Positions 1,095-62,318 of a stretch of DNA of 64,000 nt are shown here, piece after piece. This DNA is from Ilex aquifolium (Eukaryota > Streptophyta > Magnoliopsida > Aquifoliales > Aquifoliaceae), in assembly GCA_951799425.1 (NCBI GenBank), contig OX637407.1, positions 875,501 through 939,500 on the forward strand, written 5' to 3'. The notes under the pieces are model-generated. The model searched no databases. It saw nothing but the letters and a program-made list of their open reading frames with translations, and was not told the DNA's origin. The position numbers and the translations under genes were made by a program. Position 1 is the first letter of the stretch. Every line of letters begins with the position of its first letter.

Positions 1095-1414
1095 CGTTCG
1101 AACGCCAAGTAACGTTCGAACGTTGAATGCTTACAGTACTCAGCCTCTGATGAAGCTTCTGCAGAAACTTGAAAGTACTGGGAGCTCAGTCCGTTCGAAC
1201 GCCAATAGACCGTTCGAACGAGATTAACGTTCGAACGCCAATAGACCGTTCGAACGAAGAGTACTTACAGTACTATAGGCTCTGACAGAACACAAAAGTA
1301 CTGGGAGCTCACAACGTTCGAACGCCAGACCACGTTCGAACGATCTTTTTAAATTTCTTCTACCCACGTTCGAACGTCACCAACGTTCGAACGTCACAAC
1401 TCAGGCTATAAAAG
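1095..1414 (+). promoter_or_regulatory. Internal promoter of A: ten CGTTCGAACG palindromes plus TATA box
   Basis: Ten perfect copies of the 10-bp palindrome CGTTCGAACG start at 1095, 1113, 1192, 1211, 1228, 1247, 1315, 1333, 1367 and 1384. The copy at 1111-1124 extends to a 14-bp perfect palindrome. Fourteen bases after the last copy is TATAAAAG (1407-1414) in a GC-rich context, then a leader rich in A and pyrimidine tracts, then the ATG at 1652. The layout is that of a plant core promoter with start near 1438. The same palindrome precedes the TATA box of this element's LTR (4775-5140). The palindromes and TATA are seen; promoter activity is inferred. Confidence 0.7.
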
Positions 1415-1651
1415 CCCAGCTCGTCTTCTTCATTTCAAAACTCTCCAAAGTTTTGAAAAAAAAAAAAAATCGAAAAAAAAAAAAAATAATACTTGGAAAC
1501 CCTGCACTACCCAGACCCCAAAACCCCAACCATTCTCCATCTTTACCAAAAATCAACTCTCCCAAGACATTTGCCACTTCAAGAAGATCTATCTTCACAA
1601 AGAAATCAAATTTTTTTTTTTTCAAAACCCTCCAGCTCAAGAACCAAAACA

Positions 1652-2752
1652 ATGCCAAGAGTTAAGCTTCCTGCCAGAAAGAATCCAAACACCCAAGAAC
1701 CAAATTTTGTCGAAGAAGTGGTGGAGGTGAGAGAAGGAATGCCACCACTCACAAGGAGATACGACAAAACTCGGTTTCTCACAGCTCTAAAAGCAGACAG
1801 GTATGAAAATTTCTACCAAAACAAAGCCATTGTTTGTGAAAGAGATGTGATTTTGGCTGATTTTGCGGAGTTGGGAATCTTTGCGGAAATGGAAAGGAGG
1901 GGATGGTTGTTTTATTTGAGGAACGACGGTGATGCCGTAGTCGACTTGGTGCGGGAGTTTTACTCCAACGCCGAGATTGTCGACGGGGAAATTCGAACTT
2001 ATGTAAGGGGAGTCCATGTGGACGTTGATAAGGACTACATTTGGGGGGTAAGGCAAGAAGTGCCTCGGGTCCCAAATCCCGCTTACCCCCCAAGGAAGAA
2101 TGTGGCGATGAACGAGGTGGGGAGAGAACTAACAGGAGTACCCAACTTTTCATGGGCAGGGAAGAAATTTTTTAGACAAGGGGAGCTAAGTGACAAATAT
2201 AAAATGTTAAATTTGATTGCGGTGTCAAACTTTGCCCCGATTGGAAGAAAAAATGAAATTCTACCCGACATGGCCCGATTATTGTATGCTATTGGAAAAG
2301 GGCATAGCATTGACATCCCCTCCTTAGTGTTGACCGAGATGAAGAAAGGGTGTGATGTGAAGAGGAACTCTCTTCCATTCGGCACCCTCGTGACTGAAAT
2401 ATGCAAGGAGCATGGGGTGAGGATAAAACCTGAAATGGAGATCCAGAAGCCAATAGGGCCACTGAACAAGGCTTCCTTCCGGAGGAGCCAAAGTCATAGT
2501 GGTATCCCGGCGGCAAGGCAAGAAGGACCCCCAGCCCAAGGAGTGGATGAAGTGCAAGAAGAGTTGGATGAGATGGAGAGAGAGATGGGAAGAGAAGGAG
2601 ATCAGCCAGGAGAGGCTGGACCTAGCACCAGCACCCGACGTTCTTTGATGGACGTCATGCTTAGCATCGAAGCTAAGCAGGACGAGATCCTTAGGTATTT
2701 GAGGGGTGGACATGGTGGACATGGTGGTGCTAGTGAGCAGGGAGGAGAGTGA
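1652..2752 (+). CDS. Putative plant transposon protein (Athila 3' ORF)
   Basis: This is a 366-residue open frame. I chose the ATG at 1652 because it is the first one after the TATA box at 1407 and has A at -3; an upstream extension of the frame lacks a good start. The N-terminal 250 residues resemble the putative plant transposon protein domain often found downstream of pol in Athila-type elements. Examples are a KADRYENFYQNK segment, an ERRGW segment followed by LVREFYSNAE, and a VRGVHVDVD strand. Residues from about 285 on are charged and Glu-rich (a possible coiled coil), followed by a Gly/His tail. The molecular function of the domain is unknown to me. It is not an obvious envelope protein: I see no signal peptide or membrane segment. 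Element C lacks this ORF in its first internal copy. Confidence 0.75.
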   Translation: MPRVKLPARKNPNTQEPNFVEEVVEVREGMPPLTRRYDKTRFLTALKADRYENFYQNKAIVCERDVILADFAELGIFAEMERRGWLFYLRNDGDAVVDLVREFYSNAEIVDGEIRTYVRGVHVDVDKDYIWGVRQEVPRVPNPAYPPRKNVAMNEVGRELTGVPNFSWAGKKFFRQGELSDKYKMLNLIAVSNFAPIGRKNEILPDMARLLYAIGKGHSIDIPSLVLTEMKKGCDVKRNSLPFGTLVTEICKEHGVRIKPEMEIQKPIGPLNKASFRRSQSHSGIPAARQEGPPAQGVDEVQEELDEMEREMGREGDQPGEAGPSTSTRRSLMDVMLSIEAKQDEILRYLRGGHGGHGGASEQGGE

Positions 2753-4573
2753 GAGTGAGAGACTTCTATTTCTGTTCTTGTCCCCATGTTGTTTTTATGT
2801 TTGTTTAAAGTGCTTCTTTGTATGAATTTCTTCTTTTATAGTTGTAAGTTTTTGTGTGGTTGTGAAAGAATGGAACTGTTGATGTAGAAGATAAAATTGT
2901 GAAATGAATGGTTCCATTTATCACTTTTATTTGGTTTTATGCATTTGTAGATTTAGCATAGAAATTAAAAAGGTAATGGAACAAATGTGGATATTAAGAA
3001 TGCTTGCTGGAGTAAATATGCACATGATCGGTTTGACACCTCCATTTATCAACCGAGACTTAAAACCACATTTCTTGAAAACATGGATGTTCTCTCTATA
3101 CTTAAATTGTCATTTGTACATCGATATTTGTTATTTTAAAAGTACAGGAGGATCTAACTCGCAAATGGAATTGGTATATAACCGATACTCCCTGGAAAAC
3201 CTGACATACACAGTGGAGATAACAAAGAACACCAGGGTGAGTTTCGAACCTAACGATGCTTTCGAGAGACAATCAATGTTTACTCAAGTGAATTCTTTTC
3301 AAATCTCCATTTTTGAATGATCTCATTAACCTTGCTTTGATTGACGCATTTAAAAGTGATCTATTGACATATCCCACACGGAACCATCACATACGACACA
3401 TACATGTGCATATGCTTGAGAAATGATCTTAGGCCATCTTTGATATAATATTGAGCCTTAGACCTTTCTTTGAAATTTTTTTTTTTTTATCCCTCGTTAG
3501 CCATGTTTGAGCCATCAATGTTTAAAGTTTTCTTTGATAAACCTACATGATTACCAATCCACAGGAAAACATCCTTGACATACCTTGGCTATCTAATTTT
3601 CTTACATCCTCTTTGTAAGATGATACAGAAAAAGGAAAAGAAAAAGGAGCATTCGAGATTATCATCCAAGAAGAGTTGATTGGAACAATTGAAACAAAAC
3701 AGAAGCAAAAAGGCAAGAACTTGCCAAGAAAGTGAAAAATGAGAAAAATGAAAGAAAGAAATGTCATCTTTCGGCAAAATATCAAGAAGTTAGAAAGAGG
3801 TGTGCTACAAAAACGCAAACAACAGATAGCTTTTGAAAATCCCTGACGTCGTTTCGTTAGCCACTGACCTTTGGCCACGCTACAACCCATGCAAAGCCCT
3901 AATTGATCTCAAGTATGTTGCATGCATGAGTTGTTAATCACAATTGGGATATGGTAAATAGCATTCCTTTTAATTGTGTTGATATTCTTTCATGAGTTAT
4001 GCCAAACATAAGTAGTTGCTTATTTAAAATTTCACTCCTTTCTTAAAAAGTGCATGTGATTTTTCGACTGGCCATCTTCTGATCACATGATCTGTGAGAA
4101 ACAAGTCACTATAATCAGAGTGAATCTTTGCTGAGAGTATACTACATGAGGTTTGTGAAATCGAAACTATCCATGGAAGGTGAAAAAAAGGAAGTATTTG
4201 TTACATAACAATTCTTGTTGCTTGAATGATCATTCCTATTGCATTGAGAATTTCAAATACCAATGTAACAAATGATATTTTTTGCATAGATTGAATACCT
4301 GTGGAATAAGGACGTGTGAGACATAAGTCAAGGTTGAGAATCTGGTGTCTCAACGACCATGATGCTAATTTACTTTAGACATCATTATTCTATGCACATT
4401 TGTTCGACTGAAGTTTGTGGGTAGCTTCTCTGGAAACCCTCACGAGACAACACTCGTCCGCTAGGGTAAACCTAGTGGTTCAACGGCTTGTTGCATAAGC
4501 TAAATGCAACCGGATGACCTACGAAAATGGCATTAGGAGTAGAATTTTCTTTTATTACTAGAGACTAGCAATA
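2753..4573 (+). other. Conserved long 3' UTR of Athila-like element A
   Basis: This 1.8-kb stretch has no convincing ORF. Blocks from about 3100 on match 59030-60422 of C, and blocks from about 3400 on match 18131-19440 of B. Shared landmarks are CGGTATATAACCGA (3173 region), the CCATCTTTGATATAATATTGAGCC block near 3434, the CCACTGACC...GCCACGCTACAACC block near 3860, the CACTATAATC-GAGTGAAT block near 4108, and CTCGTCC...CTAGG near 4453. Conservation of non-coding sequence over 1.4 kb in three diverged elements points to RNA or DNA function, but the role is unknown. Confidence 0.7.
4490..4510 (+). promoter_or_regulatory. Conserved 3' UTR hairpin (A)
   Basis: Arms GTTGCAT (4490-4496) and ATGCAAC (4504-4510) pair perfectly around a 7-base loop, about 65 bases before the polypurine tract. 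In C (60343-60363) the outer pair is A-T instead of G-C, a compensatory change. B carries the same site with one mismatch. Confidence 0.65.
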
Positions 4574-4589: not shown

Positions 4590-4774
4590 TGATTAGTACT
4601 TAAACTTGACATATTATTATGACATTTTAAGACTAATTGTACTTTAATGGAGTTTAAGTGATGTCATTTCAGGCCCTAAACTGAACAAGGACCCAAAAAC
4701 AACAAGTACCACACTTGGATGCAGTGCCAGTACATTATAGCCCAAAATTGGAGAAGCTTGGAACACTGTCACCA

Positions 4775-5240
4775 CGTTCGAACGGCAGCTCACGTTCGAA
4801 TGTCAACCAAAACACTGTAGCAGACTCAGATGCTGAAGAGATGGCGTGTGGCAGTTAGGAAAGAAGACTGGAGCTCTAAAGTACTTGAGTGTCACGTTCG
4901 AACGCCAACTCACGTTCGAACGTGCACTTGAGTTGATGGAAGACCAGACCACTGCAGAGAGTTGGTACTGCACTTCACAGGGACCAACAGATCACTCGAG
5001 TGAAAAGGGGTCAGAGCAAGATCTGGCGTTCGAACGCCTTCAGTGCAAAAACAGAAGAAACGGTCGAACGGCATTCAACGTTCGAACGCCCTCAGTGCAA
5101 AAACAGAAAGAACGTTCGAACGCCAACTCACGTTCGAACGTAAACCACAGACTGGCAGCAGAGTTGTTGACTGTTCACTTGGACTTGAGCAGCAAACACT
5201 ATTCTTTCACCCCCCCTGCCTCCTCCTCTTGCCTATAAAT
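4775..5240 (+). promoter_or_regulatory. LTR promoter of A: CGTTCGAACG array plus TATA box
   Basis: Seven perfect CGTTCGAACG palindromes start at 4775, 4895, 4913, 5027, 5079, 5113 and 5131, with two near copies at 4793 and 5061. TATAAAT lies at 5234-5240, about 95 bp downstream of the last copy. This is the likely U3 promoter, and it shares its motif with the internal promoter at 1095-1414. Confidence 0.75.
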
Positions 5241-5602
5241 ACTCCCCTTGTTGGAGAGTGAAAGGAGGAAGAGGAGAAAGCATTGTAGGTAGTAGCATAG
5301 TGATGGAGGCTTAGACTCCCACTTTCATTGTAGTTAGTTCATTTTCCTTATGAAGTCTTTATTTTAGAGATTAGTTTGGCTTTAGTCCAACATCTCTTGC
5401 TTGTTATAACAATAGTTTTATGCTTATGTTTATGTTTATGCTTTCATTTCTCATGCATAGAAGAGAGATATCTCCCATCTTGGTTGAGGAAGCAACCCTC
5501 CAATCTTTGGTTGAGGAAGCCACCCTCCAAATGTGACTAGCTTTCTTCTACTTTAATTGTTCATGCATTTCATTTCCATTGCTTGAGCTTCCTTCTTTCT
5601 TA

Positions 5603-5804
5603 GAAGAGTGAAACTCTTCCACTTTTCTAGAGCTTGATTAAGGCCGTGAAGGGTGGAATGTGATTCACCCATTCTTTGGGGAAGATTCGCTCCACGTTTG
5701 TTGTTACTTTATCTTTTAAAGTTCTCCACTTGGAGGGATGAACATCACTCACTTTTCTAGCTTTAACCAGGCCATGAAGAGTGAGTAGTTTCTCATTCAC
5801 TCTT
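5603..5804 (+). other. Duplicated hairpin domain in R/U5 of A
   Basis: The first hairpin, GAAGAGT-GAA-ACTCTTC (5603-5619), is followed by CACTTTTCTAGAGCTT and a second inverted repeat. A diverged repeat of the whole block follows, with AAGAGTGA (5777-5784) pairing with TCACTCTT (5797-5804). The same plan is seen in C (49231-49460), where changes keep G-U pairing, and in D (41748-41765). It probably folds in the genomic RNA leader; the role (packaging, dimerisation or translation) is unknown. Confidence 0.55.
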
Positions 5805-6556
5805 TAGTGAGAGGAGAAGGGCATGTAATAGCTATCCGGAAATCATATTTGTGCAAAGTTCTTCTATGCTTAACGTTTATATCCTCTTGTTATCGGATGA
5901 TTGATTGCATCTAGCAAAGCTAAGGTACTTTGTATAATTGAGAGCTCTTTCTATGACATGGATGACTCCTGCATAGAAAGACTCATCAGTTCAAGACAAG
6001 TACCCCGGCTAGATCCTCATGACTACCCTTCAATCTCCCCCTTACTGTACTTCACTAAAAAGAATGGACTATTAATATCATGATTGGATGTCTTGTAGAA
6101 CCACTTGCTTGTTTGTAGACGGGTTAAGTCTCGGCACAGGCAATTCTTGTACATTTCTAGAAAGACATCGGAATCATGGTCTTAATCCTCAAATCCATCT
6201 TTATCTTCCGATTAACTTGCTGTTGACACGGGAGTTAATTGAGTTATCAAGCACAAATATGACAAACTGGATAACTAACTACATGTCCAGATCCTTGCAC
6301 TAAAGGGTGACTCTTTTTATTTAGCATTCATCTCCTATTTTGTTCAGAAAATCCCTCTGGAAAGAATCTTATATTCTATCCAGCAAAACCCATATCTCAC
6401 AGCAAATCAAAAAGGTTACCATCAAAAGGTCTCTACCACTGCTTACCTTAGAAATATCAACAAAAGTTCCATGTGGATTCGACTCCGGACTCAAACCGGA
6501 TTATTACTACAGCTTGACCGCCTGCACTTGGGTGTACATTGGATCAATCGCTGTCA

Positions 6557-10245: not shown

Positions 10246-10859
10246 ACTTTGTAACACCCCAAAACACACCCTGGACGACATTACATTCTAAAACATTCAT
10301 ATCATGAGAGCACTAAAATAATCCATCAATAAATAAGACTTCATAAAGTCATCCATAAAATTTACAGCATTATCCCAAAAGAATAGACCCATTTTGGGCC
10401 TTTACATCCCAAAAATCCACTAATGTAGCGCAGCGGAAATAACAAAATAAAACTAAACTTTACAAGGTTCAAAATGAATATCCTAGTCTAGAACAAAAGG
10501 AAGTGTCGCTCTAGGCGTCCACCTCGGGATCCACGCTCCCGTCTATCGGAGTCTCCCCGTGTGCGGGCTCCTCGACTCCCAGCTCTTCCTCGAGAGGGTA
10601 ATCTGAAAAATGTTAGCGGTAGGGGGTGAGCACGAAGCTCTGTAGAAAAATTCTCTCAAACCCAAACAAGGTTTAGAAACGTATTTAAAATGGCCGGTCT
10701 CATTTTTAACATAACATAGATACATAATTTGAAATAAGGCAGTGACATTTCAACAAGGATCTCAAGTTTAGATAGCAATAGTACTAGAAATGAACCATGA
10801 TAACCCATTTTAATAAACATCCATTTTCAAAATATAAACCATTTCCCACACATTATATA

Positions 10860-13150
10860 ATATTGTCCTCTTTTGGCATGAGCATCCTTATAAGGAACCT
10901 CTCACCCTCAAGGCTTGGTTACTCAAGCATCCTTATAAGGAACCTCTTGAGGAAAATCGCATACTGTCCTCTTTTGGCATGAGCATCCTTATAAGGAACC
11001 TCTCACCCTCAAGGCTTGGTTACTCAAGCATCCTTATAAGGAACCTCTTGAGGAAAATCACATACTGTCCTCTTTTGGCATGAGCATCCTTATAAGGAAC
11101 CTTTCACCCTCAAGGCATCACAAACTCAAGCATCCTTATAAGGAACCTGATGAGCACATAATATTGCATATTTGAAGGGCTCATTACATGCATTTTAACT
11201 CAACTTTTGCATTTAAGTACTTAGAGTTAGCCGAAATTATGAATAATGTTGATATTTTGATGTTGCAAGTTTTTATTGCTTAAATCATGTATTTTAGGAA
11301 ATTGCAACTATGTTGGATGTGTGGTGAAGGCATGGACACAATACATGAAGAATTGGAGGCTTAAAAGTGAAGAAATCAAGAAGGCATTGGTGCTTGGGAA
11401 CAAGGGCACCAGCTGCAGCAACAATTGGAAGCACTGCCTCGGAATTCCTCCATTTTGACCATGATCTACTCATAATTTGGAAAAGTTTAAAACATGAAAG
11501 TTGTAGATATGGGTGTCTTCTGTTTGGTTTCAAAATTTCAGCCCAATCCAACGGTTAGATCAAGAGTTATTATAATTCTACCGAAGGTGGTCCAGTGCAG
11601 AAAAACAGTACCGGTACCTAGTACCGGTACTCCGGACCTTCTGGTCGCGAAAACAGCCTGTAACTCAACTTTGAGGCTTGGGGGTCCCACCTACACTTCT
11701 CCCACGCCTATCCCAACATTTCCTTACACATTTGCAGGCCTCCTACACTCAAGTGGAAGACTTTAAAGGCCAATGCATTAAAGGAGGAATGGGGGGAAGT
11801 GGGCTGCCCAGGCTATGATCTCCTAGCCTGTCAAGGCCATCCATTCAGCCCTCTCTTGATGGGAGCTCGTTCACACAGCTAGGGGGGGAGCCTTTTCGAC
11901 GTTTTGGCAAGTCTCCACACTCAATATATTCAACATTCAACACACAATGTAAAAGTTGTTGGCTACCTAAGCTTAGAGTAGTTTTAGTGAGGAAGAAGAT
12001 GAATAGTAAAGTTGTGATTTTTACATGTTCTTCCATCCATTTCTCTTGTAACCTCTTGTAAGGATATTGTAAGCTTCCTTTACTGTCTTTAATGCCATTT
12101 ATTAGAAGTACATTTCAAGTTTAGCCTTGCACTTTACATTTCACCATTGTTATGCTTTCAAGTTCTTCATTTTCATGCTTTAAATTGGGTATTGTATTTC
12201 CTTCTTCTTACTTTAAGATTTATTGCATCTAGTTAAGTTTTAATCTTCTTTTCCTTTACTTGTCTATTTACATTATGTTTGGCTTTATTTTATGAATGAG
12301 TAGTTAGATTTAAGTTGGGTAATCCAAGGGAGACCTTCTCTTGGGGATTCCATTTCAACTCTTCTCCTTCCTCCTCTCGGTGTACGGTGGTTCAGTTTGA
12401 CGGGGTTGAGAGTGGACGAGTTAGTGAGCCTTTGATATTCCATAGGCCTAGTCACGGTTTATGCTTAGATACTCACTAATCTTGTCTCTAGCTTCCCCCG
12501 AATCAATCGTTCACCTATGCACCATTGGAAGAAGATTTCGAGTTGAGTTGGAATTCCCATTAGAATGACCTCTTTGGATTAGCCAACACTTGTTTTATTG
12601 CATTTTCATTTTCAATCACAACCACAAAACTCAAACAAAGATTTTACATTTTTCTCTTTTGTTCACCAAAATCACTTTCACACAACTCCCTTTCCTTCCC
12701 TGAGGAGACGACCTTGGAATATTTTCCAAGTAAAACACACGACCACAAAAGACTCCTTTCGATTGGGGAGCACTTTTGTTCACCACACACGCATTCCATT
12801 TCATAACATTTTGTTCATTCCATTCATTTCTATCACCATTCCATTGTTGCCTAATCTTTTGCATCATTCCGAGTGAGAGTGACACTCACCCATTCCTATA
12901 AGCCATACACACATTTAGGGATGATGTTTAGAGGTTAGGATACAACACCGCATTTCCAATCAATCAGAACCTCTTGAGGGAAATCACATACTCTCCTCTC
13001 TTGGCATGAGCATCCTTATAAGGAACCTCTCACCCTCAAGGCATCACAAACTCAAGCATCCTTATAAGGAACCTCTTGAGGGAAATCACATACTCTCCTC
13101 TCTTGGCATGAGCATCCTTATAAGGAACCTCTCACCCTCAAGGCATCACA
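10860..13150 (-). repeat. About 101-bp tandem repeat with TCCTTATAAGGA palindromes in T1 LTR
   Basis: The unit is about 101 bp, with two copies per unit of the 12-bp perfect palindrome TCCTTATAAGGA. Copies start at 10885, 10930, 10986, 11031, 11087 and 11133, then after S at 13013, 13059 and 13115. Units alternate CTCACCCTCAAGGC and CTCTTGAGG contexts. The array lies downstream of the putative TATA box on the minus strand, so it would be part of the RNA leader. Confidence 0.8.
11148..12966 (+). mobile_element. Solo LTR S (Athila/Tat-like) with target duplication GAACC
   Basis: An 1819-bp LTR with no internal region, opening TGATGAGCACATAATATTGC and closing CCAATCAATCA. It is flanked by perfect 5-bp duplications GAACC (11143-11147 and 12967-12971) inside the T1 LTR. 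It is homologous to the LTR of E at both ends (E opens TGATTAGCAC; both share ATAAGCCATACACA and AGGGATGATGT near the 3' end) and around GGGGTCCCAC (11681 region). It carries two GTACCGGTAC palindromes (11608-11617, 11621-11630) where E carries a different palindrome. A solo LTR is the usual product of recombination between the two LTRs of a full element. Confidence 0.9.
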
Positions 13151-13692
13151 AACAACCCAACCAAGCATACCATTCCAATATTTATATCATTTTACAAGCA
13201 TCTCTCCAAAATCCCCAAGATATATTATGTAACAATTCCCCAACCAACAAGGAAAATACATGAGATCACAATAACATCATTTTTCTACCCCACACAAACA
13301 ACTACGGTTTTCGAAGTTCATAATAAAGAAACATTTAAGAAGAAATACATCACTCTCCCAAAAACTAGGGTTTTAAAGCTAGAAAAGAGATTTAATGGGT
13401 ATTAAACCCTAACAATGTAATCTTTGCAAAAAGCCTAAGAGATGATGATTCTATAGCATATATATACCATTGATAGCAAAAACATACATATATAAACACC
13501 CTAGCCTCAATGTAAGTGAGTGAGAGAAAACCCCTACCTTAATGTTCTTGGAAAAATTAGGGCTTTGATCTTGAATCAACCCTTCAATCTCTTGTTTTCT
13601 CTTGATCTTGTGTTTCTCTCTTTCTCTCTTCCTCTCTTATGTTTTCTAGGGTTTGGAGTGGTGTAATGAAGGCTAAGGAGGTGACAAAATGT

Positions 13693-13807
13693 ATTTATAG
13701 TGGAAGAAATGGAGAAAGACCCGCAGTCGGATCGGGCTGGCTTTGTCGGGCGTACCGGTACGGTGTAGCTACTGGAGTTCGGCGTACCGGTACGCGTACC
13801 AGTACGG
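13693..13807 (-). promoter_or_regulatory. LTR promoter of T1: CGTACCGGTACG palindromes plus TATA box
   Basis: On the minus strand, perfect 12-bp palindromes CGTACCGGTACG (13783-13794 and 13751-13762) and one near copy (13795-13807) lie upstream of TATAAAT (13699-13693). The order matches the LTR promoters of A, B and T2, with a different palindrome. Confidence 0.65.
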
Positions 13808-14353
13808 TTTGACTGCCAGATTTTTGTTTCAACTTCCAATGCAGTTTTGACCCATTTAGAGGTCGAATTGGAAAATTTTCATGAGACATACTTTTGTAGC
13901 CCTAGATGTCTACTATCTACTGGAAAAATTTCAGATCAATTGGACTTAAGGATAAAACGTTATGGCCAAAACACTAAGTAGTGTTCAATACCCATTTTTA
14001 CCCAAATTCTCGCTAAAGTGTATTTTAACTCCGAGACACTTCCTAACTTCCAATACATCCATATTACCACTCCCAATGTTTTTTGACCTTCCGGATTCAA
14101 TGGAATCATTATTTTGACCTACAAACTTTTAGAAACTTGTCTAATCACCCTTTCCAAGTTTAAACATCTTCGACACGTAACTTCCCAATCAAATTGTCTC
14201 AATAGCATTTATTCCTACGGTTTATTCTTATGTCACTACATATATCTACATCTTTACAAATATTATTTACTATATATATATCTCTATAAATATATAAAAG
14301 AAAATTCGGGGTGTTACATCTTTAAACTTTGGTGGGGTGTTCGTCTTCAGGAT

Positions 14354-16532: not shown

Positions 16533-16540
16533 AAAATGCT

Positions 16541-18130
16541 TGGTTTATTCCACTGCATTCCGAATCTCCGGACATCATCCCTCAATATGTGTATGGCTTA
16601 TCGGGATAGGGAAGTGTCCATTTCCCTCGGAATGATGCAAGAAATGGGAAAACAGAATAATAGTGGGTGAATGAAATGTGTGTGTGTGTTTGAAGAAAAG
16701 TGCTCCCCAAGCACAGGGAGACTTTTGAGAGTCTTGTTTTACTTGGAAAAGTATTCCAAGGTCGTCTCTCGGGGAAGGAGGTGAATCGTGTTGAAAGTGA
16801 TTTTGGTGAAAAAAGGTAAAGTGTAAAAATCTTTTGTTGTTTGAGTTTGGTTTGTGATTGTATCTGGATGGAATTGAAGTGGAAACAAGTGTTGGCTAAT
16901 TCGAAGGGGTCATTCCAATGGGAATGCCAAGTCAACTTGAGACCTTCCTCCAATGGTGTCTAGATGTTCGATTGATTCGTAGGAAGCACGAGACCAAAAT
17001 GGAGGTCAGGATTCAAGCATACCCCGTGACAATGCCTACGGTGTATCAAGAACTCACAACCACGTCCACACTCAACCTAGTCAAACCGAATCAACATACA
17101 CTACGAGGAGGAAAGAAAATGAGTTGAAATGGCATACCCAAGAGGAGTTCTCCTTTGGATTAGCCAACTATAAGCTTAGCTACTCATGTTTAAAGCAATA
17201 ACATAAATGAAATGAAGAGACATTGTAAGAAATGAAGCTTGAAACTTAAACTATGTAAGAAAACACAAACTACAGGAAAATGCATTTAATACCCATTTAA
17301 AGCTTGAAATGTAGAAAACCCAAATACATTAATGGTAGAAGTTAATATATTCAACTAAACTTGAAATGTACTGGAAATAAATGGCATTAAAGACAATAAA
17401 GGAAGTTTACAATAGATTACAAGAGAAATGGATGGAAGAAATGTAAAAATTCAAGCTTTCTGTCTCTAACTATGTCTTCTACCTAGAGCTTCTCTCTCTA
17501 CTATGCAATATGATCTTAATAATGTGTAATGAATGCTGCATTTTCATCCATGGAGAGCTCCTTAGGCGTGTGACAGGCTTCCCATCAAGAGGGGGGCTGA
17601 TTGGATGGGATCTTTTAGGCTAGGACATGCCTAGCCTTCCTTTCTTGCATTGCCTCTTCTCTCTCCTCCTCATAAATGCACAAGCCTTCAAAGTCCAAGT
17701 AGAGGTGAGGGGAGGCCTGTAGATGTGTAAGGGATGTCAGGGGACAAGATGGAGATGTGTATGTGGGACCCCCAAATGACAGAGCTTGAGTAAGCAAAAC
17801 CTTCCGGAAGGTTTCTGGCAGTGAATATGCAGACAAAGTATAAACCTTCCGGAAGGTTTCTAGCCAAACCTTCCGGAAGGTTTTCTTCCAAAATGCATTT
17901 TTTCTTGGTTTCTTCACCCTCCAAGCCTTCCTTTAAGCCATCCCCTCGTCTTCATTGATTTCAAACACTTCATTGGGGGTATAACTCCAACCATTTATGC
18001 CTTTTCATGTACATTTACACAAAACTTCCATTAAAGCTAAGATTAAACACATTTCTCCCCAGTTTCACAGCAAAAACAAGTATAAGAGGGCATAATAACA
18101 TAGAATATATGCAATGTTTTGTGCTAATCA
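16541..18130 (-). repeat. 5' LTR of E
   Basis: The minus strand opens TGATTAGCACAAAACATTGC at 18130 and ends near 16541, about 1590 bp; the inner border may shift by a few bases. It is homologous to solo LTR S along most of its length. Only one LTR is visible, so its age cannot be estimated. Confidence 0.75.
17797..17883 (-). promoter_or_regulatory. Three perfect 18-bp palindromes in E LTR
   Basis: AAACCTTCCGGAAGGTTT occurs at 17797-17814, 17842-17859 and 17866-17883, each a perfect 18-bp palindrome. They sit at the position relative to GGGGTCCCAC where S has GTACCGGTAC. I see no strong TATA box close downstream. Confidence 0.8.
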
Positions 18131-20348
18131 TGAATGATTTCTTAAATCTGAATTATTTGACTATGAAGTGTGTTACCAAGAACTCTTGAGATATAATTTT
18201 AGGCAATCTTTGATATAATTTTAGCCTTATCCTTATTCTTTGTATATATTTTATCCCTAAAAGTTGTGATTGAGCCTTTTTTGAATTATATTTGTTTCGT
18301 ATATGACATATTATAACCAAGCCAAGCATATATATAATTTCCCTTACCTTGGTTCTCTTGAAATTGAGCATTATTGTTTATATAAATGGGATAATGATTG
18401 GTTGAGAGATGTTGCAGAAAAAGGTGGAATTTTGCTTATTTGTGAATACTTATATTGGTGACTTGCTAGTAAAAAAAAGTACAGATATTCATCTAATAAG
18501 AAAAGAAAAGAAAGCTAAAAAAAAAAGATAAATAAAAAAAGGTATGTCTAGCATTGGGAAAAAAATGAAAAGAAGTATGAGCAAGTATTATGAATAGTGT
18601 TTCTAAAGGATGGTGAGAAGAAGTTTATGAAAAGGAGTATGGTTGAGTAATGTATTGTTTTCTTGGGATTGGATTTTGAATCCTGAATATCCTTTTGTTT
18701 CAAAACCATAATACCAATGCCTCATTACAACCTTAGAAAAAGAACTATCTGATCTCAAGAGTGTATTGGATGATGCATGACATGTGTGAAAGAGGAGGGG
18801 GATGGTGATTTTTTTTGCTTATTATGTATTAATTTCTATTCATGAGACTATGTCAGATCCTTTTTATTGTTATAGTGGTTATTGATTATGAGATACATGT
18901 GAGTTTTATTTTTCTTTGATTTACATTAAATCTACTTACATATGATACTCTAAGAATACATAATCACTATAATCTGAGTGAATTTATTATTGAGGGTATA
19001 CCTTTTGGTGAGGAGTGAATTAAAGATAATGGAAGGGATGAGTTATTCTTGACTGGTTATCTGATCATGAATAGTTATTTACACACCACACACAAGGTTT
19101 AATGGGGATTCAATATGTGAATACTATTGTATAGCCTTTAATTCTATAAATTGACTTGGTAAGAACTTATTCGTGTTTTTTATCAAAGACATTGCTACTT
19201 TTTATCTAGTTAAAGTTATATGCTAAATACAAAGTATTGACAGATTAATGGATGTTTGTATGTACCTTCATTGGAAACCTTCACAAGACTATACTCGTCC
19301 ACTAGGGGTAACCTAGGGGTTTAAAGGCTTATTGCATATGCTAAATTCAATCGTGAGACTGAAGAAAGTGGATTAGCTATTAATTTTTTTATTTTATTTT
19401 TAATTTTTGATCTAAGTATTACTTGGGATTAGTAATATTCAGGTTGGGAGTGTGATTAACCATTAAAAGTAGTATTTTATTATATTTCATACATGACTAA
19501 TTGCATATTATTTGAGCTTATATATAATTATTTGTGAGATTTTTAGTGTATCTATTATTTTTAGTGATTGATTTCTTTCCTAGGTAACATAGGTTAATTG
19601 GACTAAAATTGGATATATTTGATGAATCAGTTGCTGTGGAAGAGTAAATTGGACCCAGGAGGGCAAAACAGTAATTTAGAGCATGGGTCAAGATTTGAAG
19701 TAGAGTGGATACCCATGGAGGATCCGAACCCATTCCCAGAACATTGGAGTATAGAATCTGAGAGGACCTTGATACATAGGATTCTCCGGACGCAAAGATT
19801 GAAGTCAGCAAGTCAAAATTATTGACTTAACAAGCCAAAGTCAGAATCGAAGATGAAATAGCATCGTTCGAATGCAACATCAACTGTTTGGACGCAAGTG
19901 TTAAGGCTCAAATTCTAGAGAATTTTAATTGTTCGAACACTATGTGTACCGTCCGGACCCAACTTGACAAAATGGACTTGAACACGACTTGATTTTTGAA
20001 AATTCCAGTGAATCTTCACTGTTCGAACACAAGGAGTGTCGTTCGAACTGCCTTTCTCAAATTCGATGCCCAAGTTTCATCAGAGTTCTAAGATTATTGA
20101 CAAGCCTAGTCGTTGACCTATACCTAGTTTATTTGTATAAATAGGGGCTCTCATATGTTGAGAGAGCATCTTGGATCATAGTCTTTTATTTTATTTTTTC
20201 TTTGATGTTTTCTTATGGCTAGTGAGTAATTTTTTGTTGTACTCTTTAGTTAGGGTATAGATCTTAGATTGTGAATTAATTATGTTATGTTTTCTGCAAT
20301 TATTTTTCATATGCTTTAATGTTTTATTTTTCCTAAAATTCTAGATCA
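18131..20348 (+). mobile_element. Athila-like element B, 3' end
   Basis: Fossil remnant: a 3' UTR (18131-19440) homologous to those of A and C, a polypurine tract AGGTTGGGAGTG ending at 19452, and a 3' LTR (19453-20348). The LTR ends in GATCA, like those of A and D, and abuts pol of T2, so B inserted into T2. No coding region is visible because E interrupts it on the left. The 3' UTR hairpin (19331-19351) has one mismatch, which fits an older copy than A or C. Confidence 0.75.
19453..20348 (+). repeat. 3' LTR of B, with decayed TTCGAA array and TATA box
   Basis: An 896-bp LTR opening TGATTAACCATTAAAAG. TTCGAA cores lie at 19867, 19932, 20022 and 20042 within decayed versions of the A motif, and an 8-bp palindrome GTCCGGAC lies at 19951-19958. 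TATAAATAG is at 20136-20144. The LTR is much shorter than those of A and C and lacks their R/U5 hairpin domain. Confidence 0.7.
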
Positions 20349-26291: not shown

Positions 26292-26294
26292 GCT

Positions 26295-41330: not shown

Positions 41331-42708
41331 GAGCAGAAATACAGAAATTCAGGAGGATTCAAGTGTACAAGTTGAATAAGGAAGGGGTGGCAAGTGCAAT
41401 GATCAAATAAATAACTAGTCAACAAGGATGCTACCAAAGCAAAAATTGAGAGAAATGCCACCGTCCGGAAGGTCCTTAAGCCACCTCAACTCTCTTTCCT
41501 CTCCTATTGGTCCAATTAAGCAACAAAGTCCTCCTATTGGCCATCCAGGGTGTCTGTCGCCTTAAAGCCCCCTACTGGTGCCTATAAATAGCTTGCTTCA
41601 GCCATTTTTTCAGAGGGAATCCAGGAGAGTTCAGTCCAGTGCAAAATGGAAGGAAAGAGAGAAAGGAAGGAAGAGCAAAGCCCTGCCAAAATCACTTCTT
41701 AGCCAGAATTTTCTTTACTTCTACATTTTTGTTTATCCTTTCTACCTGGAGGGTTGAACCTCTCCCACTTTTGTGCCCTAGCTGGTAATAAGAGTGGCAG
41801 TGTTTCAGCTATTCCTTGGGGAAGGACTTTTTTATATTTTGTTTTCAGTTGTACTGAGATTATCTCTTTCCTTTTGCTCGTCTATAACAATGAGGCATGA
41901 GTAGTCCGTTTATACTCTTTGGGGAAGGGTGAATACATGTGTAATATTATTTACATTATGGAAGTGCCGATGCTTTACTTATGCGTTAATGTTTATACCT
42001 CCCTTAATTGATGCATGGTTATATTTATAATATGCTCATGGTTATGAACACCGAACAAAGCTTAATGCTATATACCATACTATATATAATTATTATGTGC
42101 TTCATGCATTATACAGTGATGTACGTAGTTGGACTTTATGTAACAATCGGGAGATTGGTTATAGACGGGTTAAATCTCGCCATAGTAATTGCTTTTGATT
42201 CAATGAATAATTCGGAACTCCGTCTCATTGAATCATCAACCAGCCAATTGAATAGCTTGAGTAAACCTTTTGAATGGTTCACCTTCTGGCTTACTAGGGT
42301 TATTTTTATTTGATTGTTGCATGGTACAAAGACCTTCCGACTAACCTATTATGTTGTTGTGTTATGGTTCAATATACATCAAATCTACCGGTTAACTTTC
42401 CAGTAAAATGGGAGTTAATTGTTGTAAGGTGGCATTTCCATAAACAAACAATATAATGTATGTTGGATCCCCGAACTGAAGAGTACCTTTTACCATTGTC
42501 TTTCAACGTTTTAGTTAAGTGTTTATTTGATAGTTCTAAGCTTACACCACAAGCTATTCTATTAAACATTACATTCATGAAAATTTTACCATTTTTGTTT
42601 TGAAGCCTGACAGTTAGCTCCCTGTGGGTTCGACCTCGGACTTAAATCGAGAAATATTACAAGTTGACCACTTATACTTGGGTGTATGACATAAATCAGG
42701 TCAGATCA
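41331..42708 (+). repeat. 5' LTR of D, right portion
   Basis: This continues the LTR begun at 23700. A single near-palindrome CCGTCCGGAAGG (41460-41471), one base off the core of E's palindrome, lies upstream of CCTATAAATA (41581-41590). A hairpin related to the R/U5 domain of A and C is at 41748-41765. The LTR ends CAGATCA at 42708, eight bases before the primer site. Confidence 0.75.
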
Positions 42709-53200: not shown

Positions 53201-55790
53201 GCAAATGAACTCGTGCCAACACGAGTCGTCACAGGATGGCGAATGTGCATTGACTATCGAAAACTCAATCTGGTGACTAGAAAAGACCATTTTCCTCTTC
53301 CCTTTCTTGACCAAGTCCTCGAGAGAATAGCAGGCCATGAATTTTACTGTTTCCTGGATGGGTATTCCGGATACAATCAAATTGAGATAGCTCTGAATGA
53401 CCAAGAAAAGACCACATTCACATGTCCATTTGGCACCTTTGCATTCAAAAGGATGCCATTCGGACTTTGTAACGCTCCTGCAACATTTCAAAGATGTATG
53501 CTGAGCTTGTTCAGTGACATGGTCGAAAAATTTTTGGAAATCTTCATTGATGATTTCTCGGTATATGGTGGCTCATTTGATTTGTGTCTAGCTAACCTAG
53601 AAAAAGTTTTGACGAGATGCAAAGAGGCAAATCTGGTGCTTAACTGGGAGAAATGTCATTTCATGGTGAATCAAGGCATTGTCTTGGGTCACATTGTGTC
53701 GTCAGAAGGCATGAAAGTTGATAAAGCAAAAATTGATTTGATAAGGAATCTTCCTGCTCCTAGGGTTGTAAAGGATGTTCGATCATTCTTAGGTCATGCA
53801 GGATTCTACAGAAGGTTCATAAAAGATTTCAGCACCATAGCAAAACCTATGTGTCATCTTTTGAGTCAGGATGTCATTTTCGACTGGAATGAAGCGTGCC
53901 AAAAATCCTTTGACAAACTCAAAGGCATGTTAATTTCTGCCCCAATAATGCAACCTCCTGACTGGACTCTACCCTTTGAATTGATGTGTGATGCTAGTGA
54001 CTATGCTATAGGTGCTGTTTTGGGACAAAGAAAAGATAAGAAGCCACATGTGATTTACTATGCAAGTAAAACTTTAAATGATGCCCAAATGAATTACTCA
54101 ACAACTGAAAAAGAATTACTTGCTGTAGTATTTGCATTGGAAAAATTTCGATCTTATCTTGTTGGTTCTTCTGTTACTGTATTTACTGACCATGCAGCAC
54201 TGAAATTTTTGCTTACAAAAAAAAGATGCCAAACCAAGGCTCTTGAGATGGATCCTTTTGCTCCAAGAATTTGATTTAGTCATTAAGGACAAAAAGGGTG
54301 TGGAAAATGTGGTGGCAGATCATCTGTCAAGATTAACTTATGAATTTCATGAGGATGGACTGCCAATCAATGAAAAATTCCCCGATGAACAACTATTCAG
54401 GATTGATGAAACCCCATGGTACGCTGATATTGCTAATTTCCTTACTACCGGAACACTTCCTCCATTTTTCACTCTCATGGACAAAAAGAAGTTTCTGAGG
54501 GAGGTCCGCAATTTCTTTTGGGAAGATCCCTACGTATTCAAGTACTGTAAGGATCAGATCATAAGACGTTGCATCCCCGCTCAGGAAAGTAGACAGGTAA
54601 TAACATTTTGTCATTCAGAAGCATGCGGTGGTCATTTTTCATCTCGAAAAACCGCTGCAAAAATCTTGCAGTGTGGATTTTACTGGCCCACATTTTTCCA
54701 AGATGTCCATGCTTTTTGCGTAACTTGCGATAGATGTCAAAGGTTGGGAAACATTTCAAAAAGAAACATGATGCCCTTAAACCCAATTTTGGTGATCGAA
54801 ATTTTTGACTGTTGGGGTATCGATTTTATGGGACCATTTCCCCCCTCCTTTGGCTATCTATACATTTTAGTAGCCGTAGACTATGTATCCAAATGGGTTG
54901 AAGCAATTCCATGCCGAAATAATGATCATCAAACAGTGATCAAGTTTTTAAAAGAAAATATTTTATCTCGGTTTGGAATTCCAAAATCCATTATAAGTGA
55001 TGGGGGTTCTCATTTTTGCAATCGTCCCTTCTGGAATTTAATGAAAAAATACTTGATTTTTCACAAAATTGCAACCCCTTATCATCCACAGACCAGTGGA
55101 CAAGCTGAGTTAGCTAATCGGGAGATCAAATTAATTTTGGAAAAAACGGTGAACCCAGATCGCAAAGATTGGTCATTAAGACTAACTGATGCGCTCTGGG
55201 CATACCGAACTGCTTTTAAAACAATTTTGGGCATGTCTCCCTATCGATTAGTCTATGGAAAGCCATGTCACTTGCCTGTGGAATTGGAACATAGGGCATA
55301 CTAGGCTATTAAAGCAATGAATTTTGACTTAGACAAGGCTGGACTGTCACGGAAGCTTCAGATTAATGAATTGGAGGAATTGAGAAATGAAGCATATGAA
55401 AATGCTAAGATTGCAAAAACCAGGATGAAAATTTTTCATGACAAGAACATAGTGCGAAAATCTTTTGAACCTGATCAAAAGGTTCTACTTTTCAATTCGA
55501 GACTTCGCCTATTTCCTGGTAAGTTGAAATCAAGATGGACTGGACCATACATTGTTAAAAATGTATTTGAACATGGGGCAGTGGAAGTGGAGAACCCATC
55601 AAACGGTAACATTTTTACCGTCAATGGTCAGCGATTAAAACCCTTTGTGGAGAATTTTGTCCAAAATGTGGAGACCATTTTTTTTATTGATCCAGAAAGT
55701 ATCTCCGGAAATCACTCCGGAGATTACGCTTGCCGACACAAAAAAGGGTCGGGTCAATCAGACACCCGACACGATGGACTGCCTTTATAA
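50300..55790 (+). pseudogene. gag-pol region of C, first copy (fossil)
   Basis: Parts: the gag start MANIDRQGEDHVREGE; the gag core with LHSLKSLSIPNWQAL, FPLHRTN and FYDSLPTRLRQF at about 50530-50920; a CCHC knuckle, CGICALTGHPTGEC, near 51150; a Pro/Gln-rich linker; the KDLCTVKR...KRAFLTEQ block near 52050; protease with LLDLGASVNLLPF near 52215; RT with FLDGYSGYNQIEIA and FIDDFSVYGG at about 52950-53750; RNase H at about 53930-54350; integrase with a zinc-binding part near 54600-54750 and a core from [16 protein letters not shown] through [12 protein letters not shown] at 54820-55110; and a C-terminal part to 55790. It has about two or three breaks. Confidence 0.88.
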
Positions 55791-56422: not shown

Positions 56423-56833
56423 ATGGATGTAAATCTTTTTTGGTTTAGTTTAGGAGTCCTACGTACTTTTCCATCTGATGTACATACCATGATCATGAGA
56501 AAAGCAAGATTAGTAAGGAAGGCTGAAATCAAAGAAAAACAAGCGAAACCCCTCTGTGGCCGAAGCAGTTATTCTAAACGTCGTCGTGCTACACGACTTG
56601 GTGCCTGTAAACAGTGTGGCAGATACTTTCATGAGAAAAGATACAACAAATGTTCTGAACCAATTTCCGGTCGCGCAACTGATCGATTAAACTGGATAAA
56701 ACATGGGCTGAGTAAGGATTACCCTGATACGCCATGCTATTCCGGTACTGTGCTTAACCGATTTGTGAGAGAGGAAGTTGGGAGAGTTACTGGTTGTCCA
56801 TTTTACACAGATACGGAGGGGGAATCAGATTGA
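56423..56833 (+). CDS. Small basic accessory protein, copy a of C
   Basis: An intact frame. I take the ATG at 56423 (MDVNLFWFSLGV), which aligns with the A copy and gives 136 residues; an in-frame ATG at 56402 would add seven. It is about 85% identical to the A protein by eye, with the Cys45, Cys62, Cys65, His70 and Cys77 equivalents all present, the basic stretch kept, and the acidic tail EGESD. It lies downstream of pol after its own TATA-like box, pyrimidine leader and candidate splice acceptor. The frame is open although pol of the same element is broken. No known family is recognised; a zinc-dependent RNA- or DNA-binding role is possible but unproven. Confidence 0.8.
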   Translation: MDVNLFWFSLGVLRTFPSDVHTMIMRKARLVRKAEIKEKQAKPLCGRSSYSKRRRATRLGACKQCGRYFHEKRYNKCSEPISGRATDRLNWIKHGLSKDYPDTPCYSGTVLNRFVREEVGRVTGCPFYTDTEGESD

Positions 56834-56899: not shown

Positions 56900-56935
56900 A
56901 TTCGACGTTCGAACGTTACAACACGTTTGAACGTT
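56900..56935 (+). repeat. Remnant CGTTCGAACG palindromes after copy a in C
   Basis: A 12-bp perfect palindrome ACGTTCGAACGT (56905-56916) and a near copy CGTTTGAACG follow the small ORF, in the same relative place as the ten-copy array of A. No TATA box follows closely. They are probably a relic of the internal promoter now separated from any downstream ORF. Confidence 0.65.
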
Positions 56936-58129: not shown

Positions 58130-58153
58130 ATGTCTTTAGTCTTAGCAAGCATG

Positions 58154-58668: not shown

Positions 58669-58932
58669 ATGGGCCGAGTAAGGAACGTCCCGAACTACCA
58701 ACTAACAGTGTAGGTAGGGATTTGATCCTGAGACGCCATAAATTTCCAAGTTCAATTTGTGCATTTTATCTTCTTTCAATTTTCATAGATAAATGAGTAT
58801 GTGGGCTGAGTAAGGAATGTCCTAAAATGCCAACCTGTAGTGTGGGTAGGGACTTATCCTGAGACGTCATAGTTTTTCAAGTTTAATTGGTGCATCTAGT
58901 CTTCTTTCAATTTTCATAGATAAATGAGTATG
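58669..58932 (+). repeat. Two 132-bp tandem copies of the GGGCYGAGTAAGGA block in C
   Basis: Units begin GGGCCGAGTAAGGA (58671) and GGGCTGAGTAAGGA (58803). Both carry GTAGGGA and GAGACG further on and end in ATAAATGAGTATG. A has one unit (944-1075) at the matching place after its small ORF. Confidence 0.8.
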
Positions 58933-58972
58933 TTTATAATTTTGAATTTTTTTTTTTTTTATTTTATTATTA

Positions 58973-59003
<31 letters not shown>

Positions 59004-60422: not shown

Positions 60423-60438
60423 TTTAGGTTGGGGGGTG

Positions 60439-62318
60439 TGATTAACCCTAATTAATGCAAAATGTAATTAAATTAAAAGGTCAATTGTGTAATTAAATAA
60501 AGTTAAACTAGTCAAAATAAATCTAATTAGGGTTAATGTGTGAATTAAGGATAATGCATTGAATGTTGTTCTTTTCAGGTTTTTATGCGTCAAAACGACG
60601 GGAGCCAATTATCAAAGCATGGAGAGCAACTTATCAAAGCATAGGGTGTAAATTATTAAAGCTCAAAACAAAGGGAGATCAAAGTGTAAATCAAGATTTT
60701 CTTGATATTTGTAATTAAATATCTTTTAGGATAAATATCTTTTAGGATATTTGTAATTAAATATCTTTTAGGATAAATATCTTTTAGGATATTTGTAATT
60801 AAATATCTTTTAGGATAAATATCTTTTAGGATATTTGTAATTAAATATCTTTTAGGATAAATATCTTTTAGGATATTTGTAATTAAATATCTTTTAGGAT
60901 AAATATCTTTTAGGATATTTGTAATTAAATATATTTTAGGATAAATATCTTTTAGGATATTTGTAATTTGGATGCCTATAAATACCCCCCTTGGGGGCTT
61001 GTAATGGGCATCATTCTCTTGTTTCATTTTTCTTGTAAAGAACATTTCTTCCTAGTGGAAAACACTCCAAAGGTCTTGAATCTTTTTCTTGAATCATCTT
61101 TCAAGTATTATTGCTTTATTTACTTTCTTGAGTTATTGTTTTCTTTTTATTAGATCTTGGTTGTGAATTAAACACCAAGAAGTTGTTGTTTTCTTTTTAT
61201 TAGATCTTAGTTGTGAATTAAACACCAAGAAGTTGTTGTTTTCTTTTTATTAGATCTTGGTTGTGAATTAAACACCAAGAAGTTGTTGTTTTCTTTTTAT
61301 TAGATCTTGGTTGTGAATTAAACACCAAGAAGTTATTGTTTTCTTTTATGTTTTTATTATATCTTGGTTGTGGATTAAACACCAAGAAGTTGTTGTTTTC
61401 TTTTATGTATTATCATCTCTTGGTTGTGGATTAAACACTAAGTATTTATTGCTTTCTTTTAATTTAAGTATTGTTTTCTTTTACTTCCATTGTTGGAGCT
61501 TCCTTCTTCCCCTTAGAGGAGTGAAACTCTTCCACTTTTCTAGAGCTTTACCAAAGCCGTGAAGGGTGGAACGTGATTCACTCATTCTTTGTCGAAGATC
61601 GGCTCCTTGTTTAGCTATTTTACTTTGTAACACCTTTTGGGGATGAGTACCATTCATCATTCTAGCTTTACCATAGCTATGAAGGGTGAGTAGTCCTCAT
61701 TCACTCTTTGGGAAGGGATGATAGATATGTAAAAGATTAATCCGGACATTATGTTTGTGTATCACCTTTATGCTTAAACGTTCTATACTCCACTTGATTT
61801 TTGGGTGATTGAATGCACCTAGCAAAGTAAAGGTACTTTGTATAATCAACGGATCTTTCTATGATAAATGGATGACTCCTACATGGAAAGATCCATTGAT
61901 TCAAGGCAAGTACCCTAACTAACTCTTCATGACAAACTTTCAATGTCCACCATTATTGCACTTCATTCCTATCTTCCGATTAATTTGCCGTTGACACGGG
62001 AGTTAATTGAGTTATAAAGCATAAACATAATGCACCGGATAATCAACTACATATTCTGATTCCCGAACCAAAGAGTGTTTGTTACATTTAATCATCTTAT
62101 ATTTTGTCTAGAAAAATACCCATTGGAAAGAATTTTACATTCTATCCAAAACTTCCCACAACTTCAAAATCATAATATTTCCAGTTACAAGTCTTTCTCA
62201 CTATTTACTTCAAAGAACACCAACCATAGTTCCCTGAGGATTCGACTCTGGACTCAAACCAGATTATTACTACAACTTGACCGCCTGCACTTGGGTGTAC
62301 ACATTTCGGATCAAGTCA
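60439..62318 (+). repeat. LTR2 of C (shared middle LTR)
   Basis: An 1880-bp LTR with six 42-bp units (60704-60955) and a good TATAAAT box (60977-60983). It is preceded by the polypurine tract TTTAGGTTGGGGGGTG and followed by a primer site, so it is at once the 3' LTR of the first unit and the 5' LTR of the second. Confidence 0.9.

Follow-up and report, generated by a model that had tools for sequence, protein, structure and literature searches.

Short palindromes repeated upstream of a retrotransposon promoter have been described before. Bousios et al. (2010) reported that 13 Sireviruses have palindromic repeated-motif (RM) boxes, which cluster ahead of the TATA box (PMC2829016). RMs are also found upstream of ENV in the nine of these elements that have an ENV gene, the linker is free of RMs in the four without ENV, and six further ENV-bearing Sireviruses have no RMs. 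An internal promoter for ENV was suggested there, though not conclusively identified, and the RM was called Sirevirus-specific from a comparison made among Ty1/copia elements (PMC2829016). The window analyzed here, a single 64-kb stretch of Ilex aquifolium DNA and the one locus to which all of our results refer, is a nest of plant Ty3/gypsy elements by Pfam content and self-comparison, and palindrome arrays are found in their long terminal repeats (LTRs). The original prediction for this DNA held that no named feature covers such a pattern; the RM boxes, with the same placement, are a published and named precedent (PMC2829016). Our literature search for such arrays in Athila or chromovirus LTRs, with most subscription journals outside its coverage, returned no report. 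A follow-up on the maize Sirevirus palindromes by Bousios et al. is said to have appeared in Genome Research in 2016.

We conclude that the arrays are real, look functional and act like Sirevirus RM boxes, and that they are a counterpart in Ty3/gypsy that differs in its cores, has a paired unit and a candidate internal promoter, and stands outside the Sirevirus RM family. New here are TTCGAA pairs in Athila elements and in a chromovirus (T2), the double placement of the sites in a cassette of one Athila element (A), and the confinement of CpG dinucleotides to the palindromes. By clade labels taken from Pfam content and recall rather than from a tree, elements A, B, C and D are Athila-like and T1, T2, G and G2 are chromovirus-like, while E and S are akin in their LTRs (69-74% in self-comparison). 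The arrays and single sites are listed below, together with those near open reading frames (ORFs) resembling a viral nucleic acid-binding protein (NABP).

1095..1393: A internal array, ten perfect CGTTCGAACG, six of nine gaps 17-19 bp
4775..5140: A LTR array, seven perfect and two one-mismatch CGTTCGAACG, four pairs at exactly 18 bp, TATA at 5234
11608..11630: S, GTACCGGTAC twice, 13 bp apart
13751..13794: T1, CGTACCGGTACG twice, the nearest about 51 bases from a TATA box on the minus strand at 13692-13700
17797..17883: E, 18-bp palindrome AAACCTTCCGGAAGGTTT in three copies, each perfect
19865..20049: B, four TTCGAA, three TTCGAA-type pairs of exactly 20 bp each, TATA at 20136
23358..23500: T2, four TTCGAA, three TTCGAA-type pairs 17-18 bp apart, TATA at 23554
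25802..26015, 33321-33534 and 40840-41037: G, three LTRs with 11, 11 and 10 GTACCGGTAC in 73-bp units
41462..41471: D (Athila) U3, a single CGTCCGGAAG, 111 bases ahead of TATA at 41583
48503-48683: C 5′ LTR, 4.3 units of 42 bp
55701..55724: C internal, ATCTCCGGA-6-TCCGGAGAT, then a TATA-like TTTATAAGG near 55785, upstream of an NABP-like ORF
56906..56933: C internal pair, CGTTCGAACG-8-CGTTTGAACG, 18 bp apart
60704..60968: C 3′ LTR, 6.3 units of 42 bp with AAATATC/GATATTT half-sites, 8 bases from TATA at 60977

Sirevirus RMs come in at least eight copies per element. Here, by element, there are 17 perfect copies in A, 10-11 per LTR in G, six each in B and T2 with degenerate ones included, three in E and two each in S and T1, several of these elements being truncated. 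A fifth TTCGAA in T2, at 23648, is downstream of the TATA box. The per-element counts first reported for A, B, T2, T1, S, G, E and D were reproduced. The stretch of C at 55701-55790 may be a second candidate internal promoter, ahead of the NABP-like ORF.

The likeness to Sirevirus RMs lies in a dyad-symmetric repeated motif upstream of the LTR TATA box in A, B, T2, T1 and the C 3′ LTR (G is ambiguous, and S and E do not share the trait), and in extra copies upstream of a gene in the env position (ten copies in A and one pair, at 56906, in C). Sirevirus RMs are reported to form a CpG island and to vary in motif between elements (PMC2829016), and motif type varies here too. The hosts differ, being Ty1/copia there and Ty3/gypsy here, as do the cores, which are TTCGAA, ACCGGT and TTCCGGAA here as opposed to CGG...CCG half-sites, although the RM of Tnd-1 was likewise published without the CGG-CCG signature (PMC2829016). 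A further difference is that an internal TATA box (in A) and 17-20 bp pairing are visible in the holly elements. Since two superfamilies have their copies in the same two locations, we argue that the double placement is functional.

With duplicate G and C copies taken out (the collapsed window), the count of perfect 10-bp palindromes is 109, whereas 200 dinucleotide shuffles average 49.8 ± 6.9, and palindrome words seen at least three times had 57 copies against a mean of 0.68 and a maximum of 6 over 200 shuffles; the imperfect AT-rich inverted repeats of C escape both tests. Six words recur within 150 bp (CGTTCGAACG, CCTTATAAGG, GTACCGGTAC, CTTCCGGAAG, TGTTCGAACA and CCGGTACCGG), every one of them in an LTR or in the internal array of A, and the 38 palindromes that occur once show little LTR bias, with 15 in LTRs and 12.4 expected under LTR limits chosen by the analyst and element borders set partly by eye. 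Repeated palindromes in the LTRs, as originally claimed, are thus real and above shuffles, and a chance origin is ruled out by the shuffle counts, the LTR-bias test and the pair scan described next.

Pairs were scanned for with CGTTCGAACG allowing up to three mismatches; motif and range (16-21 bp) were chosen after seeing A, which leaves B and T2 as semi-independent tests of pairing and C internal as a weak one. The A internal array has six pairs (17-19 bp) and the A U3 four, each at 18 bp; B has three, each at 20 bp, T2 three at 18, 17 and 18 bp, and C internal one at 18 bp. The six remaining regions of the scan (C U3, D, E, S, T1 and G) hold no pair. The observed pair count was reached in 0 of 1000 shuffles for A internal, A U3, B and T2, and in 20 of 1000 for C internal, and the probability of the gap pattern under random placement is 3e-05, 1e-05, 0.00024 and 0.006 for the first four, respectively, T2 being the weakest. 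Pairing in A, B and T2 therefore joins Athila elements and a chromovirus lineage beyond a six-base core. Palindrome-pair patterns were also found in 6 and 9 of the unannotated contigs in viral_contigs, and among those inspected by GC content and motif position (6 of 6 and 4 of 9) no plant element was recognised; one contig, L014, holds its repeats within ORFs.

The conserved block is the palindrome itself. Every one of the ten CGTTCGAACG columns is invariant across the ten copies of the A internal array and the neighbouring columns agree at 40-70%, with only the four outer columns being informative since the sites were chosen by their inner TTCGAA. The 18-bp palindrome of E is identical in all three copies. 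Simple tandem duplication was rejected for A, B, T2 and E, as their flanks are unalike and the dyad is kept. In a more general form, the arrays could be a functionless by-product of tandem duplication that drifts like a satellite. The arrays of G, C and T1 do sit in tandem units of 73, 42 and 101 bp, and parts of the A arrays are also called as short tandem repeats (52, 19 and 17 bp); copy numbers of G and of CCTTATAAGG are partly due to tandem duplication because the repeats sit in 73-bp and 101-bp units. Such an origin leaves unexplained the dyads kept amid unlike flanks, the CpGs kept only inside palindromes in the A internal array and the position ahead of TATA boxes, and we hold it to be quite improbable. 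The CCTTATAAGG copies belong to a second palindrome of the T1 LTR (12 bp with flanks), present nine times downstream of the TATA box at 10886-11145 and 13014-13125.

In the A internal array, 30 of 30 CpGs are inside palindromes, with 0 outside against 8.0 expected. The A U3 has 21 inside perfect palindromes and 7 outside (17.0 expected), E has 3 inside and 0 outside (2.0 expected), and G has 12 inside and 4 outside (7.1 expected). This confinement would fit selection on the sites, or a recent origin with loss of CpG elsewhere. As a plain observed-to-expected ratio, computed without an island caller, CpG content is 1.83 in A internal, 1.21 in the A U3 array, 0.73 in B, 0.81 in T2, 0.45 in the C LTR and 0.62 in the window. 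It could be proposed from the central CpG of the TTCGAA, ACCGGT and TTCCGGAA cores, and from the high ratio of the A internal array relative to the window, that the arrays are methylation sensors in which the symmetric CpG is functional and its methylation blocks binding. However, the C LTR and T1 CCTTATAAGG arrays have no central CpG and retention of CpG is expected of any binding site that contains one, making this very improbable in our judgement.

A TATAAA follows 8 of the 10 arrays or sites by 8-111 bases, the exceptions being S and E. Measured from the near end of the array, the distance is 13 bases in A internal, 93 in the A LTR, 86 in B, 53 in T2, 8 in the C 3′ LTR, 111 in D, 51 in T1 and 83 in G; the TATA of the C 5′ LTR is altered to TTTAAATA. 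A lone TATAAA hexamer is weak evidence because it occurs 36 times on the plus strand and 24 times on the minus strand of the window. The range of 15-110 bp upstream of TATA in the original prediction holds for the nearest copies and falls short for whole arrays, which extend over 93-449 bases upstream in the A LTR, 86-261 in B, 53-186 in T2 and about 51-83 in T1. Likewise, most arrays are in LTRs as described, and the one at 1095-1393 is outside. For G, a placement in R/U5 had been given. It fits an upstream promoter candidate near 24210, where a degenerate G TATTTAAAG, 1.6 kb upstream of the G array, is homologous in place to CTATAAATAG in G2, but the TATAAA 83 bases after the array leaves the placement ambiguous.

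The array outside the LTRs belongs to a region of A that C lacks, the relevant features being:

416..826, plus strand: A NABP ORF, 136-aa basic zinc finger protein, PF05515 Viral_NABP / PF01623 Carla_C4, Pfam above cut-offs
1050..3061, plus strand: A cassette (array, TATA box and PF20167 ORF), borders from alignment, with 225 bp (58777-59001) in its place in C
1406..1414, plus strand: A internal TATA box CTATAAAAG, TATAAA from 1407
1652..2752, plus strand: A open frame of 366 codons with ATG at 1652, PF20167 (Athila 3′ additional ORF), Pfam E 8.8e-26
56423..56833, plus strand: first NABP-like ORF of C
58151-58555: second NABP-like ORF of C

The ten internal CGTTCGAACG copies stop 12 bases short of CTATAAAAG at 1406, placing the same sites ahead of two TATA boxes, LTR and internal, in one element. 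This internal promoter candidate and the pairing, the most informative parts of the pattern, had gone unmentioned in the original prediction. The alignment of A with C stops at A 1049/C 58776 and restarts at A 3062/C 59002, which gives a cassette of ~2 kb, and the C LTR has no CGTTCGAACG within two mismatches, having AT-rich 42-bp units instead. The PF20167 ORF of A is on the sense strand upstream of the 3′ LTR, as in the Athila additional ORF. In a sunflower Athila element, PF20167 is reported from a sense additional ORF that is related to Athila ORF1 and has a predicted nuclear signal (PMC11728184).

These features raise the possibility of an element-encoded activator loop, in which the PF20167 or NABP-like protein binds the pairs at its own internal promoter and in the LTR, either as a positive loop of the foamy-virus kind or as a VANC-like counter-silencing factor, and T2 borrows the sites. 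The cassette is present in A and missing in C, whose LTR is likewise without the palindrome; the PF20167 frame is open; and the NABP-like ORF encodes a basic zinc finger protein under purifying selection. Published accounts add the nuclear localization signal predicted for the sunflower Athila PF20167 protein (PMC11728184), antisense accessory proteins of Retand proposed as DNA-binding regulators (PMC11963269), and the RMs upstream of ENV in 9 of 9 RM Sireviruses that have it, with linker copies in 0 of 4 that do not (PMC2829016). Against such a loop, the co-variation is based on two elements, the same sites occur in the truncated chromovirus T2, where no such gene was seen, and C retains NABP yet not the LTR palindrome. 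RM boxes are also absent in the six further ENV-bearing Sireviruses (PMC2829016), and the protein model of PF20167, at pLDDT 39, is too poor to use or to show a DNA-binding fold. Overall, we find an element-encoded activator unlikely. Still less likely, in our estimate, is its fullest form, where A would be a self-amplifying circuit: the accessory protein (PF20167 or NABP-like) under the internal promoter would read the pairs there and in the LTR, its specificity and the palindrome type would be swapped together as a cassette, and the chromovirus T2 would exploit it. If true, transactivation would exist among retrotransposons, complete with cheaters, and would have arisen in Athila in parallel with Sireviruses.

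In foamy viruses, the LTR and an internal promoter before the accessory gene share cis elements in the Tas loop, and VANDAL/VANC is an anti-silencing system of DNA transposons with an accessory gene and family-specific repeated short motifs that are not known to be palindromic. The internal promoter of A, as suggested by its TATA box, resembles the foamy virus arrangement in sharing sites with the LTR upstream of an accessory gene, but foamy viruses are animal viruses and an activator role in A is only proposed. VANDAL/VANC, mentioned in PMC11728184, concerns a DNA transposon, and the PF20167 and NABP-like ORFs here are candidate binders. A maize element named in a 2013 title (reference list of PMC11963269) has a gene for an accessory nuclear protein downstream of pol with its own promoter; there the accessory gene is antisense, and the text available does not mention palindromes.

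Another possibility is that the palindromes act as hairpins in RNA or single strands, pairing into stems that lead to small-RNA silencing or RNA dimerisation, with the spacing serving as loop length. The A internal array far outdoes its shuffles in folding (z -10.3, 0 of 100); the 10-bp stems of its fold link palindromes that are adjacent or nested, and all four pairs of the A U3 form stems of 9-10 bp. B (z -2.75, 2 of 200) and T2 (z -3.05, 0 of 200) also fold better than shuffles, each with a 9-bp stem between distant palindromes, and maize Sirevirus palindromes are described as small-RNA hotspots (PMC5311732, PMC10760457). Despite the kept spacing, however, a pair hairpin forms in 0 of 3 pairs of B and 1 of 3 of T2 (5 bp). 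The arrays are upstream of TATA boxes, one of them internal, and any inverted repeat would serve for a stem, leaving the palindromic halves unexplained. We regard hairpins as an improbable explanation.

The original prediction also took palindrome type to be independent of kinship. Self-comparison relates A to C (73-77% over accessory-region and R/U5 stretches), B to C (74% ahead of the 3′ LTR) and D to C (76% in gag). The reverse transcriptase (RT) protein of T1 is 71-73% identical to that of T2 (over 153 and 116 aa) and 64% to that of G2 (409 aa), and T1 DNA is 68.5% identical to T2 and 70.4% to G. Because T1 and G are both chromoviruses, their shared palindrome fits kinship; it was not borne out as a case of discordance, and we dropped it as evidence of exchange. 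Discordant sharing is left for T2 with A and B, S with T1 and G, and D with E, so independence from kinship holds at least for T2 and S. The S and E LTRs align either side of an interval that has GTACCGGTAC twice in S and AAACCTTCCGGAAGGTTT three times in E, the alignment being poor inside it.

T2 and A have in common the core, the 17-18 bp pairing and the spacer letters CCAA/CCAG. The T2 spacers CCAAATCT, CCAGACA and CAAATCTC resemble A spacers such as CCAAGTAA and CCAGACCA (p 0.0004 against random T2-U3 segments and 0.0038 against letter shuffles), and the spacers of B and C show no resemblance to A (p 0.2-0.6), which is why we argue exchange for T2 alone. The earlier suggestion of a cassette exchanged between families is thus made plausible by T2 and A, as is one shared composite factor, and gains nothing from B and C. 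T2 and A may share the cassette by descent, or one factor may read the palindrome plus CCA. In wheat Quinta LTRs, the QuinCent motif was proposed to have been acquired by gypsy from a copia family, though it is a 162-bp nucleosome-positioning motif rather than an array of palindromes (PMC11302176). A maize copia palindrome is also found in Helitrons, one palindrome in unrelated elements, but elements and core are other than ours and it is treated there as RNA structure (PMC10760457). Both are precedents for sharing between unrelated elements.

On balance, and with a modest lean only, we favour the arrays being promoter-proximal enhancers for dimeric transcription factors, most likely of the host, at the LTR and, in A, at the internal promoter of the accessory gene. 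The sites, their symmetry and pairing, the position before TATA, the double use in A, the presence or absence of the cassette and the confinement of CpG are seen directly, and from them we infer protein binding, activation and a host origin of the factor. Dimeric factors, probably of the host, would bind the array sites and activate the LTR promoter, and in A the same class of factor would also drive a separate internal promoter for the accessory gene. In the TTCGAA class, two palindromes 17-20 bp apart would work together as one unit, bound by a pair of dimers or by a tetramer. Sites and their CpGs would be preserved by selection for binding while the flanks drift, and elements could switch sites fast, as S versus E and A versus C suggest. 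We propose that the same few cores appear in different clades because the same host factors are used or U3 segments are exchanged.

TCX/LIN54 factors (CHR) have TTYGAA sites and SBP factors a GTAC core. The C LTR array (60704-60968 and 48503-48683) is made up of AAATATCT, which occurs 20 times in the window, 19 of them here; AAATATCT matches the evening element, to which the CCA1/LHY/RVE factors of the host bind, and its presence in the C LTR suggests clock-factor control of C. Among characterized plant LTRs, the U3 boxes of Tnt1 and Tto1 are short repeated or symmetric motifs bound by host stress factors, differing from the arrays here in having few copies and none at an internal promoter. 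Box I of Tnt1 is named in PMC2829016.

Several observations weigh against enhancers for host factors. The arrays fold as RNA better than shuffles, tandem duplication accounts for some of the copies in G, C and T1, and the likeness of the A and T2 spacers could come from descent and not function. D carries one near copy only, no TATAAA is near the S and E arrays, and the promoter position of G is ambiguous, with a candidate near 24210 and a TATAAA 83 bases past the array.

The NABP-like ORFs deserve mention in their own right. All three copies match Viral_NABP (42.1-49.3 bits, cut-off 23) and Carla_C4 (24.0-26.2 bits, cut-off 20.9), the C copies are 89% and 67% identical to the A copy, and dN/dS among the three is 0.19-0.26. 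Against viral models, RNA silencing suppressors of pruneviruses took the first two places (30% identity over 137-138 columns) and the nucleic acid binding protein of red clover vein mosaic virus the third, all with E 0.05 or worse; 0 of 71 matches passed E 0.001, and TM scores were 0.28-0.29 or less with a poor model (pLDDT 59). A sequence search of the PDB gave 19 matches, nearly all ribosomal proteins, with a best E of 0.023. No relatives of NABP were found in genome_contigs, and none of PF20167, Athila RT, chromovirus pol or NABP in viral_contigs. Our literature search for work tying retrotransposons or Athila to Viral_NABP (PF05515) or the carlavirus nucleic acid-binding protein found no paper. 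These matches make it possible that Athila elements and plant RNA viruses have exchanged genes, in either direction.

The LTRs that carry the arrays, other than those of G, C and D, are:

4590..6546, plus strand: A 3′ LTR, TGAT...ATCA, borders by eye
10250..14318, minus strand: T1 (chromovirus) LTR, split by S, borders by eye
11148..12966, plus strand: S, solo LTR and E relative, GAACC duplication at its flanks, by eye
16540..18130, minus strand: E LTR, ends approximate, gag downstream, from self-comparison and Pfam
19453..20370, plus strand: B (Athila) LTR, truncated, TATA at 20136
23025..23699, plus strand: T2 (chromovirus) LTR, truncated, TATA at 23554

S is inserted in the T1 LTR repeat array. 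Pfam places a gag in E, whose primer-binding site, by eye, is presumably Tat-like, and the Ty3/gypsy domain order RT, RNase H, H2C2, rve is found in G, G2, C and partly T1; the pol genes of A and B are not in the window, that of A falling outside it. G, at 23827-41325, is a tandem of LTR-body-LTR-body-LTR with near-identical LTRs, inserted in the D LTR (GTTTC duplication by eye). C, at 48238-64000, also appears multimeric, with LTR-body-LTR and then a second body start (96% over 3.6 kb), giving two unrelated families of the window the look of tandem multimers. A scan of the window for tRNA genes with bacterial settings found none.

If host factors read the sites, the arrays would explain how unrelated retrotransposon clades converge on and swap on-switches. 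If instead a protein of the element reads them, there would be plant retrotransposons with virus-like transactivators. In either case, the A cassette offers a visible candidate promoter, and a testable link to the LTR, for the debated accessory ORFs of Athila.

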